A DNA stretch of 64,000 bases from a virus. The stretch's first letter is position 1. Each line of letters starts with the position of its first letter. The stretch is taken from the IMG/VR virus record IMGVR_UViG_3300042862_000198, positions 1-64,000 of that record; one strand, written 5' to 3'. Of this stretch, positions 19,777-35,193 are shown one piece after another. Made by a program: the position numbers and the translations under genes. The notes under the pieces are model-generated. The model did no database searches, was not told where the DNA came from, and saw only the letters and a program-made list of their open reading frames with translations.

Positions 19777-19803
19777 AGAGAGGGACATCAGTGTCCCCCT
19801 CTG
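19777..19803 (-). terminator. Terminator after the 157-aa gene
   Basis: On the minus strand AGAGGG...ACA pairs with TGTCCCTCT across CTGA, followed by CTATTTTATTT. It lies directly after the stop at 19821, so this gene is a transcription unit with its own end. Confidence 0.7.
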
Positions 19804-22088: not shown

Positions 22089-22307
22089 TTACAAATCTTC
22101 ATTGTACTCAAAATCTCCGGAATCTATATATTCCAGAATCTCTTCCTTGTAAGCATAGTCAACAGTATAACCTATAAACTTTTTATCACCTTCTGTAATT
22201 ATAGTAAGTTCATCAAAGTTTATTCTATATGTATCTCTACCATCTACATCCTTTTGAAATACTATGGTACCTGTAATCAGATACCATAGAAATATTAATG
22301 TATTCAT
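22089..22307 (-). CDS. Hypothetical protein with N-terminal hydrophobic segment, 72 aa
   Basis: Begins MNTLIFLWYLITGTIVF, a likely membrane anchor or uncleaved signal, followed by a soluble acidic part (DELTIITEGDKKFIGYTVDY and EEILEYIDSGDFEYNEDL). Overlaps the upstream gene by one base. Not recognised. Confidence 0.65.
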   Translation of the reverse strand: MNTLIFLWYLITGTIVFQKDVDGRDTYRINFDELTIITEGDKKFIGYTVDYAYKEEILEYIDSGDFEYNEDL

Positions 22308-22474
22308 TATGCAGAAACTAATTTCTCTGCAATGTAAGATTCTCTCAACATAACAATTGTTTGTATGTCTAGCTCATAAAGTGCATCTATGTATTCCTGA
22401 GTTAAGAATACATTTTGTTTCTGTGCTGATGTTACTAACTTAGTAATCTCAGTAATCATAAATTGTGTAATCAT
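22307..22474 (-). CDS. Hypothetical protein, 55 aa
   Basis: Starts at MITQFMITEITKL (22474). An upstream in-frame ATG at 22561 would translate through the terminator at 22503-22532 and is rejected. A helical protein with EYIDALYELDIQTIVMLRES. Not recognised. Confidence 0.6.
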   Translation of the reverse strand: MITQFMITEITKLVTSAQKQNVFLTQEYIDALYELDIQTIVMLRESYIAEKLVSA

Positions 22475-22502: not shown

Positions 22503-22532
22503 AAAAAGAGGAGTAATCTTATTACTCCCCTT
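22503..22532 (-). terminator. Strong intrinsic terminator
   Basis: On the minus strand AAGGGGAGTAAT pairs with ATTACTCCTCTT (12 base pairs with one G-T) around a 3-base loop and is followed by TTTTTAT. This is the best terminator in the left arm. Nothing of normal protein-coding size precedes it for 480 bases, so it seems to end an RNA made from 22533-23014. Confidence 0.85.
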
Positions 22533-23014
22533 AAGTTTAATGCTAATAACTTTCTACCCATGAACCTCTAAGCATCACCTGTTCATATGCACCAATAAGG
22601 ACTACAATCATTAGTTCATGTATCTTATGTTATTGGATTTCAAGGTCTTTCAACCTATATGTATGATAATAAGTATCATATACTTGCATTGACTCATCAC
22701 CACTTATGCTATGGTATCCCTCTGTACTCAGTTGTAATACACATACATTGTTACCTTTACACTACCTACAAGTCTATGGACTTTTTAATATGAAGGTTCA
22801 GTAAGAATACCCATAACAGGATTTCCATTAACAAGCATAAAATGCATAGTGGTTTCCACAAATCATTAGCTAAATGATTGAAGTGTTAGCATACCAGACA
22901 TAACTATACCACCTCGGAGTTAATTAAACTCTGTATGGATTTATAACTACAACTGTAGTCTTATGCCTATGTATTACAATTGCCTGACCTTGGGAATCAG
23001 GAATGGTACATTAA
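22533..23014 (-). ncRNA. Candidate structured non-coding RNA (no conventional gene)
   Basis: This 480-base stretch lacks a gene of normal length on either strand but holds an unusual density of hairpins and ends at a strong terminator. Stems seen on the + strand: 22662-22680 (TATGATA/TATCATA), 22771-22782 (AGTC/GACT), 22849-22859 (GTGG/CCAC), 22861-22879 (AATCATT/AATGATT), 22917-22931 (GAGTT/AACTC), 22946-22959 (ACTAC/GTAGT), 22983-23001 (CCTGA/TCAGG). GC content is above that of the flanks. It may be a phage large RNA of a type not yet described. The rival view is a cluster of tiny peptides: MIVVLIGAYEQVMLRGSWV... at 22543-22611 has good codons. No tRNA-like or tmRNA end is visible. Confidence 0.4.
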
Positions 23015-23242
23015 TTAATGAAAATCATTATAATCTTCAGGAGCATAATCTTCTTCAAGCATTTGCTCAATGAAGTTTTGTGCTATATCACCTTGTATTT
23101 CAAACTTAGGTTTTACAGGTGTAGCTATTACTCTTGCTTTATTATTAATAATAAGCTTAAGAGTATTTCTTAAATGTTGTATATCCATAGTATCAACATT
23201 AATCTTTTGACCATTTTTCATAGTCCAATAAACATTTTCCAT
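23015..23242 (-). CDS. Hypothetical protein, 75 aa
   Basis: Begins MENVYWTMKNGQKINVDTMDIQHLRNTLKL, followed by IINNKARVIATPVKP and an acidic C-terminus (LEEDYAPEDYNDFH). It resembles small phage proteins with the phrase TKxGxKIxVxxMxxxHLxNTLKxI, where the helix HLxNTLK is conserved; function is unknown to me. The next coding region upstream is 440 bases away. Confidence 0.7.
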   Translation of the reverse strand: MENVYWTMKNGQKINVDTMDIQHLRNTLKLIINNKARVIATPVKPKFEIQGDIAQNFIEQMLEEDYAPEDYNDFH

Positions 23243-23513
23243 AAGTATAATTTTAAATTTTAAATATTCCGGAAATACTAACCTTGCTTTCCCTATAGAG
23301 AGAGAACCTAATAGTATATATAGTCAATACTAATGATTAGCTATATAAATATATATTATAAGGCTTTATTCCCAATCTGTTAACACACAAACTGCCAATA
23401 ATATGGTGATAGTTTATCACTTTATCACACTTTCACCCTCTTTCTCACTATTTTCAAAAATATAACTACTTGATTTACAGTATCAAAGTCACATTGTTAC
23501 ACAGGCTGGAGAC

Positions 23514-23611: not shown

Positions 23612-23640
23612 AAGCTGTATTAAGACTGCCGTAGGCTTTT
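23612..23640. repeat. Intergenic GCTGCCGCAGGC element, copy 1
   Basis: Pattern AAGCTGTATTAAGACTGCC-GTAGGCTT. It is a diverged copy of elements at 24017-24045 and 24166-24194. The core can fold into a small GC stem. Confidence 0.6.
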
Positions 23641-28198: not shown

Positions 28199-31100
28199 AT
28201 GGACAATAATCAACCCAATCAAAATTTTTTTTGTAATGATGGGTTAACTACACCTATTTCATGTGAACCTCAATTTACATGTCCTGATCCTGAACAATGT
28301 TCAGAAGTATATGATGCAGATTGTGTTATATATTTTGGAGAAAATATTATTTGCCAAGGAACTACAATAATAACTCAGTATACTTCAGTAGCACAAGGTT
28401 TAAATGAAATAGTTAATTGGCTTTGTAATGAAGGAAATATAGGTGTCCAAGGTATTCAAGGAGTCCAAGGAGTCCAAGGTATTTCAGGTGCATTTGCAGG
28501 ACAAGGTGTACAAGGAACCACTGGTATACAAGGTAATGTAGGTATTCAGGGAATCCAAGGAATACAAGGCATTCAAGGTATTCAAGGTTTTAATGGTCCA
28601 CAAGGAATTCAAGGTTTTGTTGGAACAGGTGTTCAAGGTTATCAAGGTCCTCCTGGTATTCAAGGCCCTACAGGAGTACAAGGATTTGTTGGAATAGGCA
28701 TCCAAGGATATCAAGGTGCTCAAGGTAGTCAAGGTTTACAAGGATTTACTGGTGGAGTTGGTATTCAAGGAGTACAAGGATCTACTGGAATAGGAGTTCA
28801 AGGTACACAAGGTATACAAGGACAAATTGGTATAAATGGTGTACAAGGAAATACAGGTATTCAAGGAAATACAGGTATTCAAGGAAATACAGGTAATGCA
28901 GGTTCTCAAGGTGCAGCCGGAAGTAATGGTAGTCAAGGTAGCACTGGAAGTCAAGGCAATATAGGTTCTCAAGGTGCTGTTGGAAATATAGGATCTCAAG
29001 GATCTATTGGTACAACTGGTGCTACAGGTAGTCAAGGTAGTCAAGGTTTTACTGGTACTACTGGTACACAAGGAACTACAGGTACACAAGGTATACAGGG
29101 TTTTGTTGGTTCTCAAGGAACACAAGGTACAGTAGGTAATATTGGTTCACAAGGATCAACAGGAAGTATAGGTTCACAAGGAAGTATTGGTATACAAGGA
29201 TTTAAAGGAGATACTGGTAATCAAGGTACTACAGGTAATACTGGAATGCAAGGAGCAACAGGCACACAAGGAAATATTGGTGTTACTGGTAGTCAGGGAG
29301 CTCAAGGCATCCAAGGAACAACTGGTACACAAGGTTTAACAGGAACTCAAGGTTCTCAAGGAACACAAGGATTGTTAGGACTTCAAGGTGTTCAAGGTGT
29401 TCAAGGTGTTTCTGGTACAGGTGGTGTTGTAGCTAATTATGGATCATGGTATTCAACAGTAGATCAAACTGCTGCAGCAATCAATACAGAATACATAATG
29501 ACTGCTAATACAATTTCTTATGCTAATGGTGTAAGTCTTGTATCAGGAACCCGAGTAACATATTCAAGTGCTGGTACTTATGCTTTTAATTTTTCAGTTC
29601 AGTTACATTATACCGGAGGTGGAGGATCAGGTGATGTAATAGATATTTGGTTAAAAAAGAATGGAACTGTTGTTCCTGATTCAAATACAAAATATTTAGT
29701 ACCTTCTAATCTTGCTTTTAATGTATCATCATTAGATTTTCTATTTACAGTAGTAGCTGGAGATTATTATGAAATTGCATGGGCTACTAATAACATAAAT
29801 ATCAGATTAGAATATGATGCGGCATCAGCACCTCATCCAGCTGTTCCTTCTGTAATCATTAATACTTTCCAAGTAACTTATACTCAATTAGGACCACAAG
29901 GATCTCAAGGAATACAAGGTACTACAGGAACTCAAGGATCAATTGGAACACAAGGTACTCAGGGCATACAAGGTATACAAGGAACTACTGGTTTACAGGG
30001 TTCAACAGGACTTCAAGGTTCAGTTGGAACAACAGGTTCTCAGGGTTCTATAGGAACTATTGGTAGTCAAGGAGCCACAGGATCCCAAGGTACAACAGGT
30101 ACTACGGGAACAGCTGGTTCTCAAGGTAGCACAGGATCAATTGGAACCCAAGGAGCAATTGGTAGTCAAGGAATACAAGGATTTATTGGTAATACAGGTA
30201 CTACCGGAAGTCAAGGAACACAAGGTTTTATAGGATTAACTGGTGCACAAGGAGCAGTTGGTGCACAAGGTGCAACAGGTAGTGGAGCTCAAGGTGCAAC
30301 AGGAACCCAAGGTTCAACTGGATTAACAGGTAATCAAGGTACAACTGGAAATCAAGGTACTGTAGGTTCACAAGGTTCAGTAGGAGTACAAGGCACTCAA
30401 GGTTCTCAAGGTGCTTTAGGAAATGTTGGATCTCAAGGAACTGTTGGTGCCCAAGGATTAAATGGAACTACAGGATCCCAAGGAACAACAGGTTCTACTG
30501 GTTTACAAGGTATAATTGGAACACAAGGAACTCAAGGCACGAATGGTACAACTGGTTCACAAGGTGCTATCGGTACTCAAGGAACAACTGGAACTAATGG
30601 CTCACAAGGTACTAATGGTACTCAAGGTGCTATTGGTTCTCAAGGAACTATAGGTACAACTGGGGCTACGGGATCACAAGGAGCAACTGGAACACAAGGT
30701 AATATTGGTACTCAAGGTGCTACTGGAACTCAAGGTACTACTGGTACACAAGGTAATATTGGTACAAGTGGTAGTCAAGGTTCAACTGGTTCTATAGGTT
30801 CACAAGGAGCAGTGGGTGCACAAGGAACAACTGGTACTACAGGTAATGCAGGATCACAAGGTGCAATAGGCTCTCAGGGATCTATTGGAACTACCGGATC
30901 TACAGGAAGTCAAGGAAGTACTGGAGCAACTGGTTCTACAGGTAGCCAGGGTGCAGTTGGATCCCAGGGTACTCAAGGAGCTATTGGAACTCAAGGTAGC
31001 ATTGGAACACAAGGAACTATTGGAGCTCAGGGTGCCGTTGGATCTCAAGGTTCTGTTGGTACTCAGGGTGCACAAGGTGCACAAGGAATTTTAGGTACAA

Positions 31101-32659
31101 GTGGTAGTCAAGGTACAAGTGGTAGTCAAGGTACAAGTGGAAGTACTGGATTACAAGGAACAGTTGGATCACAAGGAACTACAGGAACAACCGGAACCCA
31201 AGGAACAATTGGTTCTCAGGGAGCTATTGGATCTACTGGAGCAACAGGGACTCAGGGAACAGTTGGTAGCCAAGGATTTATTGGATCCCAAGGAGCAACA
31301 GGAGCAACAGGAAGTCAGGGTTTTACTGGAACAACTGGTACTCAAGGTAGTATTGGTTCACAAGGTGCTACAGGAACAACTGGAGGAATAGGTAGTCAAG
31401 GAGCTATTGGCTCTCAAGGTACAATTGGGACTACTGGATCCCAAGGAACAACAGGATTTCAGGGAACCACAGGTACAACAGGAAATACTGGTTCTCAAGG
31501 AGCAATTGGTAGTCAGGGTACAATTGGATCTACTGGAAATCAAGGTACTACAGGTGGAATTGGAACACAAGGTGCTACAGGTACACAAGGTGCTAATGGT
31601 TCTATTGGAGCTCAAGGTAATACAGGTTCTCAAGGTACAAGTGGAATAAATGGCTCACAGGGAACCACTGGTAGTCAAGGTGCACAGGGAACATTAGGAG
31701 TTCAAGGTCTAACTGGTAGCCAAGGTTCTACTGGTACTACAGGTTTGACTGGAGCCCAGGGTACTCAGGGTATTATTGGCTTACAAGGAACTCAAGGAAT
31801 ACAGGGAATTATTGGTGCAGGTGGTTTACAAGGTACTGATGGTGCACAAGGTACTGATGGTATACAAGGTACAATTGGTAGTCAAGGTTCAACTGGTAGT
31901 GGTACACAAGGTATACAAGGAATCCAAGGTCTATTAGGACCTTCACCAACTGTACCTGGAAGTAATAATGAAGTTTTAACTTCAAATGGTGCTGGTGCAA
32001 TAGTTGCTGAATCTAATTTAACTTTTGATGGAAGTATACTAACAATAAATGATAGACTGTTAACTACAAGTTCTACTTACCCAAACATTGATACTCAAAA
32101 TGGTCAATTGATTACACCAAGTGGTACAACCATAGCATTTAGTTGGTTATCTGATTTTATAGCATATGGTAATTTATATTCTTTATGGTATAAAGATATA
32201 AACATACAAAGATTTTTTTCATTTAATAATGCCCTATCACCTACATTTTACTATGAGGGTGATGTCATTGAAGGAACCTATTATTCAGCACCAACCCTTT
32301 ATAGTTTGGTTTCTTTAAGAACTGATGGTACTTGGGAGATGGCTGACCAATCAACTGCCTCATCAACAAAAATGTTAGGGATATATGTTGAATCTGCTGG
32401 TTCTGGTACTATTAAAATTCTTTTAGAAGGGCATGTGCAGGTTGAAGATACAAATAATGGTTTAGCACCTTTTGTAACTGCATTAGACCACGGCCTTCCT
32501 ATCTACATTAAAGGTGCTACTACTACTGGTCTATTATCCACTACATTACCTACCAAAGATTATGTACGCATCTTGGGTTATGCTTATCATCAAAGCACAG
32601 ACACACCAACAATATGGATTATGAGATTTGATCCGGATAATACTTGGATTTTCGTATAA
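28199..32659 (+). CDS. Giant Gln-rich collagen-like fibre protein, 1486 aa
   Basis: The N-terminal 80 residues are Cys-containing and probably anchor the fibre. Residues 82-408 are Gly-x-y repeats, then 409-560 is a jelly-roll (C1q-like) domain (NYGSWYSTVDQTAAAINTE...), then 564-1248 is a second Gly-x-y tract of about 228 triplets, and 1250-1486 is a C-terminal globular tip (IYIKGATTTGLL...LGYAYHQS). The repeats rarely use Pro and nearly always have Gln or Thr at y (GSQGTTGTQG), so it is an atypical collagen that relies on Thr and Gln. Such fibres give phages an adhesive surface and are also used to bind host polysaccharide or mucus. Copy number of repeats is likely to vary by slippage. Confidence 0.9.
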   Translation: MDNNQPNQNFFCNDGLTTPISCEPQFTCPDPEQCSEVYDADCVIYFGENIICQGTTIITQYTSVAQGLNEIVNWLCNEGNIGVQGIQGVQGVQGISGAFAGQGVQGTTGIQGNVGIQGIQGIQGIQGIQGFNGPQGIQGFVGTGVQGYQGPPGIQGPTGVQGFVGIGIQGYQGAQGSQGLQGFTGGVGIQGVQGSTGIGVQGTQGIQGQIGINGVQGNTGIQGNTGIQGNTGNAGSQGAAGSNGSQGSTGSQGNIGSQGAVGNIGSQGSIGTTGATGSQGSQGFTGTTGTQGTTGTQGIQGFVGSQGTQGTVGNIGSQGSTGSIGSQGSIGIQGFKGDTGNQGTTGNTGMQGATGTQGNIGVTGSQGAQGIQGTTGTQGLTGTQGSQGTQGLLGLQGVQGVQGVSGTGGVVANYGSWYSTVDQTAAAINTEYIMTANTISYANGVSLVSGTRVTYSSAGTYAFNFSVQLHYTGGGGSGDVIDIWLKKNGTVVPDSNTKYLVPSNLAFNVSSLDFLFTVVAGDYYEIAWATNNINIRLEYDAASAPHPAVPSVIINTFQVTYTQLGPQGSQGIQGTTGTQGSIGTQGTQGIQGIQGTTGLQGSTGLQGSVGTTGSQGSIGTIGSQGATGSQGTTGTTGTAGSQGSTGSIGTQGAIGSQGIQGFIGNTGTTGSQGTQGFIGLTGAQGAVGAQGATGSGAQGATGTQGSTGLTGNQGTTGNQGTVGSQGSVGVQGTQGSQGALGNVGSQGTVGAQGLNGTTGSQGTTGSTGLQGIIGTQGTQGTNGTTGSQGAIGTQGTTGTNGSQGTNGTQGAIGSQGTIGTTGATGSQGATGTQGNIGTQGATGTQGTTGTQGNIGTSGSQGSTGSIGSQGAVGAQGTTGTTGNAGSQGAIGSQGSIGTTGSTGSQGSTGATGSTGSQGAVGSQGTQGAIGTQGSIGTQGTIGAQGAVGSQGSVGTQGAQGAQGILGTSGSQGTSGSQGTSGSTGLQGTVGSQGTTGTTGTQGTIGSQGAIGSTGATGTQGTVGSQGFIGSQGATGATGSQGFTGTTGTQGSIGSQGATGTTGGIGSQGAIGSQGTIGTTGSQGTTGFQGTTGTTGNTGSQGAIGSQGTIGSTGNQGTTGGIGTQGATGTQGANGSIGAQGNTGSQGTSGINGSQGTTGSQGAQGTLGVQGLTGSQGSTGTTGLTGAQGTQGIIGLQGTQGIQGIIGAGGLQGTDGAQGTDGIQGTIGSQGSTGSGTQGIQGIQGLLGPSPTVPGSNNEVLTSNGAGAIVAESNLTFDGSILTINDRLLTTSSTYPNIDTQNGQLITPSGTTIAFSWLSDFIAYGNLYSLWYKDINIQRFFSFNNALSPTFYYEGDVIEGTYYSAPTLYSLVSLRTDGTWEMADQSTASSTKMLGIYVESAGSGTIKILLEGHVQVEDTNNGLAPFVTALDHGLPIYIKGATTTGLLSTTLPTKDYVRILGYAYHQSTDTPTIWIMRFDPDNTWIFV

Positions 32660-32991: not shown

Positions 32992-35193
32992 ATGGCATTT
33001 AACTTACCATTACAAAATTATTTTAGTAGAACAACAGGTCCAGCAGTATATTCAAGACCTGCATGTTGGCCTGTAATTACAGATGTAGCTACAGAAGTAC
33101 AATTTTTATTTTGTGATCTTGGAGATGCAGCATGTCAAATTAGAACAACATTTACAAGAACATCAGGCACCCAAAATATAACTATAGATTGGGGAGATGG
33201 ATTTACTAGTACAGTTACAAATACTTTTTCAACAGATACTACTCATACATATACTCCAGGAACAGGAACACCTTGTCCATCTTTAGGTTACACAACATTT
33301 AAAATTAGAGTTTATTTTACAGGAACTGGAGTATCAGTTTTAAATAACTGTAATATAATGGCTATTCTAAATACTGCTAGTACTGCAGTTGGTAGTCCTC
33401 AAATTTGTCATGTATTAGAAGCATATTATGGAAATAGCACACAAAATGCAACTCCTGTTAATTTTTATTCAATCATAGGTAGTTCTTGTTTATCTATATA
33501 TAGCAATTTACAATTTGTAAAATTACCAGCAACAGTATCTTGGACAACATGGACTACAACTTTTAGTTATTGCTTTTCCTTACTTAAAGTTGTTATGCCA
33601 ACTTCTAATTCTGCTGTAACTTCATATGCAAGTGCATTTCAAAATTGTTGGAATTTACTAGAAATTATACTTCCTTCTAATTCAACAGGTATTCAAAATA
33701 TGAATGCCTCATTTATTGGTTGTAGTAACTTAAGATCTGTTACTCTTCCAACTACAATGAATTCTTGTACTGATTTGGGTAATTGTTTTTTTAACTGTAC
33801 TAATTTGAGATCTGTTACATTACCCTCTATTAATGCTTGTAATAACTTACAATTTACATTTTACACTTGCATGCAATTAGAATGGGTAAAATTTACAAGT
33901 ATGCCAACGGTAGGAGCTAATATGCAAAATTGTTTTCAAGACTCCGTAAATTTACAAACTGTATATTTCCCTGCTACAGTATCAAATCCTTTATCCCTGT
34001 ATTCTTTAAACAGTGCATTTAATAGTTGTCGTCAATTAAAAAACATTGTTTTACCATCAAATATGAATGTTAGTACGTTTGAGAGTGCTTTTAATAGTTG
34101 TACTTCATTAACATCTTGTATATTACCTGCAACTTCTCCAGGTTGTGGAGCATATAACAATATATTCTTAGCATGTGTTTCTTTACTTAAAATTACATTA
34201 CCTGCAGCACCAACAGCTGCTGTTACTTTTCAATCTGCGTTTAATGGTTGCATAAAATTACAAGAAGTTACAATTCCTTCTGGATATATACTTAATAATT
34301 TTAATCAAACATTTCTTAATTGTTTTAGTTTAAAAACAATATCATGGACCCCAGGTGCTCAAAATTCAATATCAGGAATGCAATTAACATTTGTTAATTG
34401 TTATCTATTAACAAGTTTTACAATGCCTACTTCTATGAATGCTTTAACAACTCTTTCATCTGCATTTAGTGGTGCAAGGTCTTTATCAAGTTTAACATTT
34501 CCTTCAAGTTTAAATGCTGTTACTACAATGGCAAATTGTTTTTCTGGTAATACAGGACTTACATCTGTTACTTTACCTACTTCAATGTCTGCATGTACTA
34601 ACTTTAGTGGTACTTTTAATAGTTGTATCTTACTTACCAACATTACTTTACCAAATACTGTAGGAGCAGTTACAACATTTAATGGATGTTTTTCCGGTTG
34701 TAATAGTCTTAAAACTTGTGTTTTACCTGGAGCTGCTCAGTTGTCTTTAGTAAATGACATTAATGCAATGATTCAAGGGTGTTCTGATTTGGTTACACTT
34801 ACAAACTTTGATAAAATTGGGTCTTTAACTGCAACACCTTTAATGTCTGCCGCTACTTTTAATAGCAATAGATTTAAAGGTGGATCAGCAATTTCATTTT
34901 ATGGACCATTAAGTTTACTTCAATTAAATGGATTAAACGTTAAAACAGATACACAAGCAGTAAGACTTTTAAATACTTCAGCAGGACAATGGACAGGAGG
35001 ATCTCCTCAAATAAATGTATCTTTTACTAATATGAGTACAGCACAAATAGTACAATTATTTAATGATATGGCACTTCAAGGAACTCAAGCAACAACAAAA
35101 ACAATTAATATAACTGGAGCAACAGGAGCAGCAGCTTTAACTACAGCAGATAGATTAATAGTAACATCAAAAAATTGGACAATAATAGGATAA
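32992..35193 (+). CDS. BspA-type leucine-rich-repeat surface protein, 733 aa
   Basis: Starts MAFNLPLQNYFSRTTGP; a longer in-frame start at 32917 overlaps the upstream gene and is not preferred. Residues 45-120 contain a PKD-like beta domain (ITIDWGDGFTSTVTN). From residue ~150 a long tandem of BspA LRR_5 repeats follows, each about 23 residues, with the pattern LxxVxLPxxxxxxxxLxxxFxxCxx. BspA proteins in Bacteroidota bind fibronectin and other surfaces, so this is probably a host-binding fibre of the virion. A helical C-terminus (TNMSTAQIVQLFNDMALQG) closes it. Confidence 0.8.
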   Translation: MAFNLPLQNYFSRTTGPAVYSRPACWPVITDVATEVQFLFCDLGDAACQIRTTFTRTSGTQNITIDWGDGFTSTVTNTFSTDTTHTYTPGTGTPCPSLGYTTFKIRVYFTGTGVSVLNNCNIMAILNTASTAVGSPQICHVLEAYYGNSTQNATPVNFYSIIGSSCLSIYSNLQFVKLPATVSWTTWTTTFSYCFSLLKVVMPTSNSAVTSYASAFQNCWNLLEIILPSNSTGIQNMNASFIGCSNLRSVTLPTTMNSCTDLGNCFFNCTNLRSVTLPSINACNNLQFTFYTCMQLEWVKFTSMPTVGANMQNCFQDSVNLQTVYFPATVSNPLSLYSLNSAFNSCRQLKNIVLPSNMNVSTFESAFNSCTSLTSCILPATSPGCGAYNNIFLACVSLLKITLPAAPTAAVTFQSAFNGCIKLQEVTIPSGYILNNFNQTFLNCFSLKTISWTPGAQNSISGMQLTFVNCYLLTSFTMPTSMNALTTLSSAFSGARSLSSLTFPSSLNAVTTMANCFSGNTGLTSVTLPTSMSACTNFSGTFNSCILLTNITLPNTVGAVTTFNGCFSGCNSLKTCVLPGAAQLSLVNDINAMIQGCSDLVTLTNFDKIGSLTATPLMSAATFNSNRFKGGSAISFYGPLSLLQLNGLNVKTDTQAVRLLNTSAGQWTGGSPQINVSFTNMSTAQIVQLFNDMALQGTQATTKTINITGATGAAALTTADRLIVTSKNWTIIG

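Follow-up and report, generated by a model that had tools for sequence, protein, structure and literature searches.

A modular noncoding RNA locus with a conserved junction–pseudoknot core in a crAss-like phage

What, if anything, is encoded by an apparently gene-free interval in the leftward gene arm of a crAss-like phage? Few known phages are as abundant as the Crassvirales, and their RNA biology is, to our knowledge, almost a blank. The window—by which we mean the whole 64-kb stretch of DNA that was analysed, out of a virus record of 122,176 bases—contains terminase, portal, and major head proteins matching crAss-like or head-and-packaging families. Gene directions diverge from about 24.0–24.7 kb, with the replication genes in the leftward arm, which arm we call early by analogy with cultured crAss-like phages, and the structural genes in the rightward arm; the latter also encodes a 1486-aa collagen-like repeat protein (28199–32659). 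The interval in question (22533–23014) belongs to the leftward arm, where it is flanked by a 75-aa gene (23015–23242, minus strand), whose product found no match in a PHROG search, and a gene of 54 aa from its likely start (22307–22471, minus strand); an 84-aa frame from 22561 enters the interval solely through an upstream ATG, the likely start being near 22471. Upstream of the 75-aa gene lies a promoter-like site (TTAACA-17-TATAAT, 23355–23383, minus strand), of a kind whose frequency in this stretch is not above chance. As a separate observation, the repeat GCCTGCGGCAGC, followed by a conserved AT-rich stretch, occurs at window positions 23625, 24032, and 24180 on the minus strand (4 matches in the window versus 0.15 expected) and also in contigs L001, L213, and L217–L221; its copies tend to come after terminators near the start of the arm, and it is perhaps a promoter.

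The original prediction, that the interval is free of genes, held: no minus-strand frame of at least 32 aa lies wholly inside it, the longest being of 31 aa (TTG start), 24 aa (GTG start), and 22 aa, and the reading of TAG or TGA as sense, in consideration of an alternative code, opened no gene. As the second of two options, a cluster of short peptides had been proposed, and the 22-residue mini-frame is indeed present at 22543–22611, as is the frame of 24 residues. Inspected by eye, however, the latter—located inside the insert J described below—differs mostly by amino-acid replacements among the window, L164, and L065, its middle having been exchanged for a different hairpin, while the only homologue of the 22-residue frame is that in the near-identical L001, with one replacement. 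Conservation in the locus follows the base pairs and not the protein frames, which outcome is the opposite of the one that had been named as speaking against an RNA; we accordingly hold the peptide cluster to be highly improbable.

Folding of the transcribed strand gave a z-score of −2.21 relative to shuffled sequences, with 2 of 100 shuffles equally good, and the segment 22506–23016 gave −2.59 against 60 shuffles; but since the opposite strand also scored −1.77, the folding energy alone is weak evidence, and it is the comparative covariation, in a core A and an element H, that raises the stretch above chance. The at least seven stem-loops initially listed are mostly not conserved helices; those conserved are the helices P1, P2, and P3 of A along with its pseudoknot, the hairpins of H, and the terminator. 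This intrinsic terminator (22506–22532, minus strand; 12-pair stem, 3-nt loop, T-run, −14.0 kcal/mol) is real and as described, except that it sits just outside the interval that it had been said to end; its rank as the strongest of the arm is arguable, in that the terminator at 19802 has 11 pairs but 6 G–C pairs versus 4. Read on the minus strand from about 23013 to 22506, the composite locus consists of A with J, then H, a tail, and the terminator, and it carries a real structured RNA, the core of a family that recurs in many crAss-like phages.

Core A emerged from comparison of the locus with six contigs reached through the 75-aa protein and one reached through the 54-aa protein: two short blocks, far apart in the window and closer together in those other contigs, pair with each other. 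The resulting fold is a three-way junction of P1, P2, and P3, with a pseudoknot between CCC in the P2 loop and GGG just 3′ of P1. On the minus strand of the window, the 5′ half (22974–23013, located by cmsearch and covariation) comprises UAA, the P1 5′ strand (23010–23006), the P2 hairpin (23001–22983; loop UUCCCAAGG at 22996–22988), and the start of P3, the 5′ strand of which, CAAUUGUAAUAC (22971–22982), has one A–C mismatch with its partner, replaced by G–U in L001. The 3′ half (22718–22740) comprises the P3 3′ strand (22740–22729), an A, the P1 3′ strand GUACA (22727–22723), GA, and the pseudoknot GGG (22720–22718). The consensus helices are UGYAC/GURCA for P1, a 5-bp hairpin with loop UUCCCAAGG for P2, and CARUUGUAAUA/UAUUACAAYUG for P3. 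With R1, cmsearch matched the window at 22921–23012 (49.6 bits, E 3.9e-10) and again at 22712–22802 (E 0.07), the latter covering the 3′ half, so that the single A of this record appears as two half matches; a further, weak match at 33817–33931 (E 0.023) lies inside a coding gene and was taken as chance.

Scans of IMG/VR for each block returned at least 120 stretches, and from the fetched loci we collected 59 distinct copies with both halves. P1 was fully complementary in 58 of the 59 (shuffled-partner mean 42.6, maximum 49) and P2 in 57 (mean 13.7, maximum 23); the seed searches had prescribed the P2 loop and, in one scan, half of P1, while P2 pairing was never a condition and one scan left P1 free. 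For the alignment A1 we retained the 37 copies in which the blocks lie no more than 100 nt apart and three or more of the four P1 letters pair; because this rule left out the short copy L112 (P1 2/4), the same copy that constitutes the one failure among the 59, P1 is slightly flattered there. In that alignment 97.9% of the cells pair and 11 of the 24 pairs show two-sided changes, the covariation score being 0.352 versus 0.163 ± 0.009 in shuffles—none of 500 reached it—and 0.095 or less in slid controls. RNAalifold, when given no structure, returned the same three helices, as did four of five compact copies folded alone (the exception being L028), and in the copies with inserts of more than 100 nt, which lie outside the alignment, P1 and P2 were fully paired in 21 of 21. 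The UAA 5′ of P1 is conserved in 88 of 92 copies, and the unpaired letters around the junction–pseudoknot (UAA, CA, the loop, and GA) are invariant.

Neither the CCC of the loop nor the GGG that follows P1 changes in any of the 37 sequences, in part because the search had fixed those letters; variants came from the model search, and a later scan required pairing in P1 and P2 and left the pseudoknot free. Among the 64 copies then considered, 56 had CCC/GGG, four CAC/GUG, and two CCA/UGG, and two were broken at one pair, so that the contact was paired in 62 (shuffle mean 51.0, maximum 56). To judge from these sequences, the contact is supported by two different compensatory changes, each of which may have been inherited by several copies. 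In L001, L008, and L115 the GGG doubles as the 5′ arm of a terminator, there making pseudoknot and terminator mutually exclusive. That arrangement, together with the invariant unpaired letters surrounding a compact junction–pseudoknot, would suit a riboswitch-like or self-cleaving RNA, which would sense a ligand or cut itself, and the covariation would be alike for any rigid junction–pseudoknot, for instance a riboswitch or a ribozyme. The terminator overlap is nevertheless confined to those three, apparently related, loci, and no downstream gene is shared by the copies, the 83 frames downstream of A falling into 70 clusters and the 85 upstream into 74; since the gene neighbours differ in this way, a gene-specific switch is unlikely, and we give the riboswitch-like or self-cleaving alternative as a whole a low probability.

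P3 holds interchangeable inserts. The length of its middle ranges from 17 to 484 nt across copies, and in copies of a second type (type 2) the P2 loop is expanded in place of P3; among 23 type-2 3′ halves, 15 had a 5′ half 83–210 nt upstream that was complementary in both P1 and P2, and for the other 8 the scan gave no matching upstream half. The insert in the window, J (22732–22979, minus strand), forms a multibranched RNA domain, roughly 250 nt long, inside P3, with homologues in L164 (94%) and L065 (93%); the P3 helix marks both limits of the homology exactly (UUGUAAUAC / GUAUUACAA). In L164 J lies within an A whose 5′ half is decayed, whereas in L065 it stands alone, beside another A. An unconstrained fold of A plus J gave P1, P2, P3, and a branched J (z −2.55). 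The notion that inserts in general are specially structured was not borne out, the mean z-score being −0.94 for 53 inserts versus −0.97 for 86 control pieces. Separately, the A copies of the different contigs L015 and L038 have a related insert and different P2 letters, which sharing may be taken as a further sign of insert exchange.

Element H (22640–22715, minus strand), which in the window begins right after the GGG, consists of a small hairpin with the invariant loop AGCAUAA, a putative GCAU–AUGC pseudoknot that is unproven because it never varies and because the H search pattern fixed these letters, and two variable hairpins. The pattern occurred in 30 IMG/VR contigs; in the 26 distinct copies aligned, 99.2% of the cells of the first helix pair and three of its five pairs show two-sided changes, while the two hairpins downstream keep their place, with letters that differ in most copies. 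In several loci H comes immediately after A, and in others the two lie apart. The tail before the terminator (22533–22639, minus strand), which holds the 22-residue frame, is unconserved: beyond about 22625 similarity is found only in L001, and the tail fold has a z-score of 0.25. We are confident, to the point of near certainty, that the whole constitutes a noncoding RNA locus of a crAss-like phage, composed of core A, the exchangeable J in P3, H, and the terminator.

Other elements were seen near A. An element B, made of UACUCUCAUCCAAGCAGG, an insert, and then CAAGGGUUGCAACCUUGUGAGAGUA, the ends of which pair, occurs in the same islands in L004, L059, L065, L090, L111, and others, and repeated structured-looking elements such as ACCACAAGGUUUCAGGCAUAACCUCUCAUCCUGUAAAGCAGGGGUUGACUUGUGGU are present in L026, L054, and L004. 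Directly 3′ of A at about 2730–2775 of L157, a hammerhead-like sequence (CUGAUGAG...CGAAAC) was noticed by eye, which had no Rfam match at gathering; and L151, another A-carrying contig, has a predicted tmRNA at 887–1274 on its minus strand.

A is present in more than 100 viral contigs. R1 found it in 48 of 49 and 45 of 50 virus records, counts that are not unbiased because the records were chosen from the loci; in a less biased sample of loci, reached through a neighbouring 95-aa protein, A was present in 6 of 13, a near-identical pair among them. A crAss-like portal was encoded in 68 of the 99 records (40/49 and 28/50), many of the others being short fragments, although two records without portal measure 77 and 126 kb. 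Wherever A and the portal occurred together they were on opposite strands (62 of 62 records, being 39 plus 23 read by eye, with some near-duplicates), and in 61 of them A was divergent upstream of the portal, while the coordinates of the remaining one may wrap. In cultured phages, blastn with the locus gave no match and with a compact A copy gave chance matches only, A being absent from both phi14:2 and crAss001, each of which was searched; in cellular genomes (85k species), one of 10 pattern matches was a true A, in a 4.6-kb lake MAG contig (L180).

Each genome has one to three copies, many of only 90–150 nt and some in tandem; none was found on the arm other than the leftward one. A often lies 30–60 nt ahead of a frame, and a terminator hairpin immediately precedes it in 8 of 92 copies versus 10 of 903 control positions, a frequency about eight times that of the controls. 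Such a location near the start of the arm opposite the structural one, always in the sense of the former (62 of 62), within a stretch rich in terminators (12 found versus 2.3 expected), would fit a nascent-RNA element that makes the RNA polymerase ignore early-arm terminators, in analogy with the put RNA of phage HK022. Yet here a terminator comes directly after the element, the terminators that A follows in those 8 copies precede it, and tandem copies and confinement to one arm likewise tell against that possibility, which we consider quite unlikely, marginally below the riboswitch-like one. A role in tRNA processing was dropped, a tRNA being present within 600 nt downstream in just 5 of 149 copies; ARAGORN, applied to the whole record including the window, found neither tRNA nor tmRNA. 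Nor was a Y RNA bound by a TROVE protein, an idea taken from crAss001, retained: TROVE was encoded in none of 39 locus records, crAss001 being positive.

What, then, might A do? Our best guess, a tentative one drawn by analogy, is that core A is an RNase-resistant 5′ block that stabilises a noncoding RNA. A transcript running through the 75-aa gene would be degraded or cut up to A, whereupon the RNA would be shielded by A at its 5′ end and by the terminator hairpin at its 3′ end, so that some 500 nt of stable noncoding RNA (A–J–H) would be left; in other copies, with A 30–60 nt ahead of a gene, A would protect the mRNA of that gene. The transcription, the stability, and any nuclease in this scheme we infer; its basis is the observed fold, pseudoknot, orientation, position, modularity, and absence of a gene partner. 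We favour it because of the occurrence of A in the sense of the arm, before frames and after terminators, and because of a plan resembling that of the viral exonuclease-resistant RNAs (xrRNAs); that A starts 1 base past the upstream stop codon and that the terminator closes the unit is in keeping with such a product. As to a host 5′–3′ exonuclease, the accessible part of one review did not state how RNase J is distributed among Bacteroidetes.

Nearly as likely as the 5′ block is a stand-alone, trans-acting ornate RNA, the equivalent in crAss-like phages of GOLLD and ROOL; early in infection it may assemble or engage a host machine. This too can be held only tentatively. The phage-only occurrence, the conserved core with variable inserts, and the early-arm position of a terminator-ended unit without a gene here would be expected of such an RNA, whereas compact copies numbering one to three in each genome, many of them so short, the lack of any single full-length architecture, and the scarcity of downstream tRNAs would not. 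Returning to the 5′ block, its bolder version—that A is the DNA-phage counterpart of the viral exonuclease-blocking RNAs, a portable junction–pseudoknot that caps swappable cargoes at the start of the early arm—is rather unlikely; if it were true, crAss-like phages would build a set of stable noncoding RNAs by domain swaps via P3 and P2. Independently of function, a covariation-supported RNA class with a fixed place, a fixed orientation, and interchangeable inserts is common to many metagenomic crAss-like phages, so the intergenic islands of these phages can contain real RNA genes, and there is now a defined fold with which to ask why they retain so much noncoding sequence close to where the early arm begins.

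A structured RNA of a kind other than GOLLD and ROOL had been foreseen, and the conserved fold, the compensatory changes, and the result of the Rfam comparison then proposed all agree with it. Rfam 15 gave zero matches in the window at gathering and chance matches only at a permissive E of up to 10, tRNA matches only in 20 loci with or near A, and no match up to E 5 for compact A alone; and the accessible parts of the open-licence literature, including PMC8375218, PMC12286853, PMC5760640, PMC3071783, and PMC9378689, name no such RNA of crAss-like phages. For crAss001 early, middle, and late modules are reported, the portions seen of that paper making no mention of a noncoding RNA of this phage (PMC8375218). 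An RNA-rich start of the early arm is seen in cultured crAss-like phages as well: crAss001 has tRNAs near the start of its record, but no A; and Cellulophaga phage phi14:2 has near its first genes a gene-poor stretch with a tmRNA (L208, 4031–4500) predicted by ARAGORN and not confirmed by Rfam at gathering, again without A.

For GOLLD, the part available to us describes a 3′ region that is conserved and a 5′ region that is less so, and places this RNA close to tRNA islands of phages (PMC12286853); our RNA resembles GOLLD and ROOL in being phage-encoded, noncoding, and folded, with conserved and variable parts; it differs in matching no Rfam family and in that A is a compact core of crAss-like phages, a single genome carrying several copies. 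The HK022 put RNA, which according to the passages available suppresses the termination of early phage genes (PMC9378689), is likewise a structured RNA within an early phage operon, but A has other neighbours and terminators on both sides. The flavivirus xrRNA, finally, is reported in the accessible text to form a three-way junction whose apical loop pairs just 3′ of the closing helix (PMC5760640). A is without sequence relation to it, comes from a DNA phage, and has its pseudoknotted loop in the second helix; yet it shares both the three-way junction and the pairing of a hairpin loop with the 3′ flank of the closing helix.
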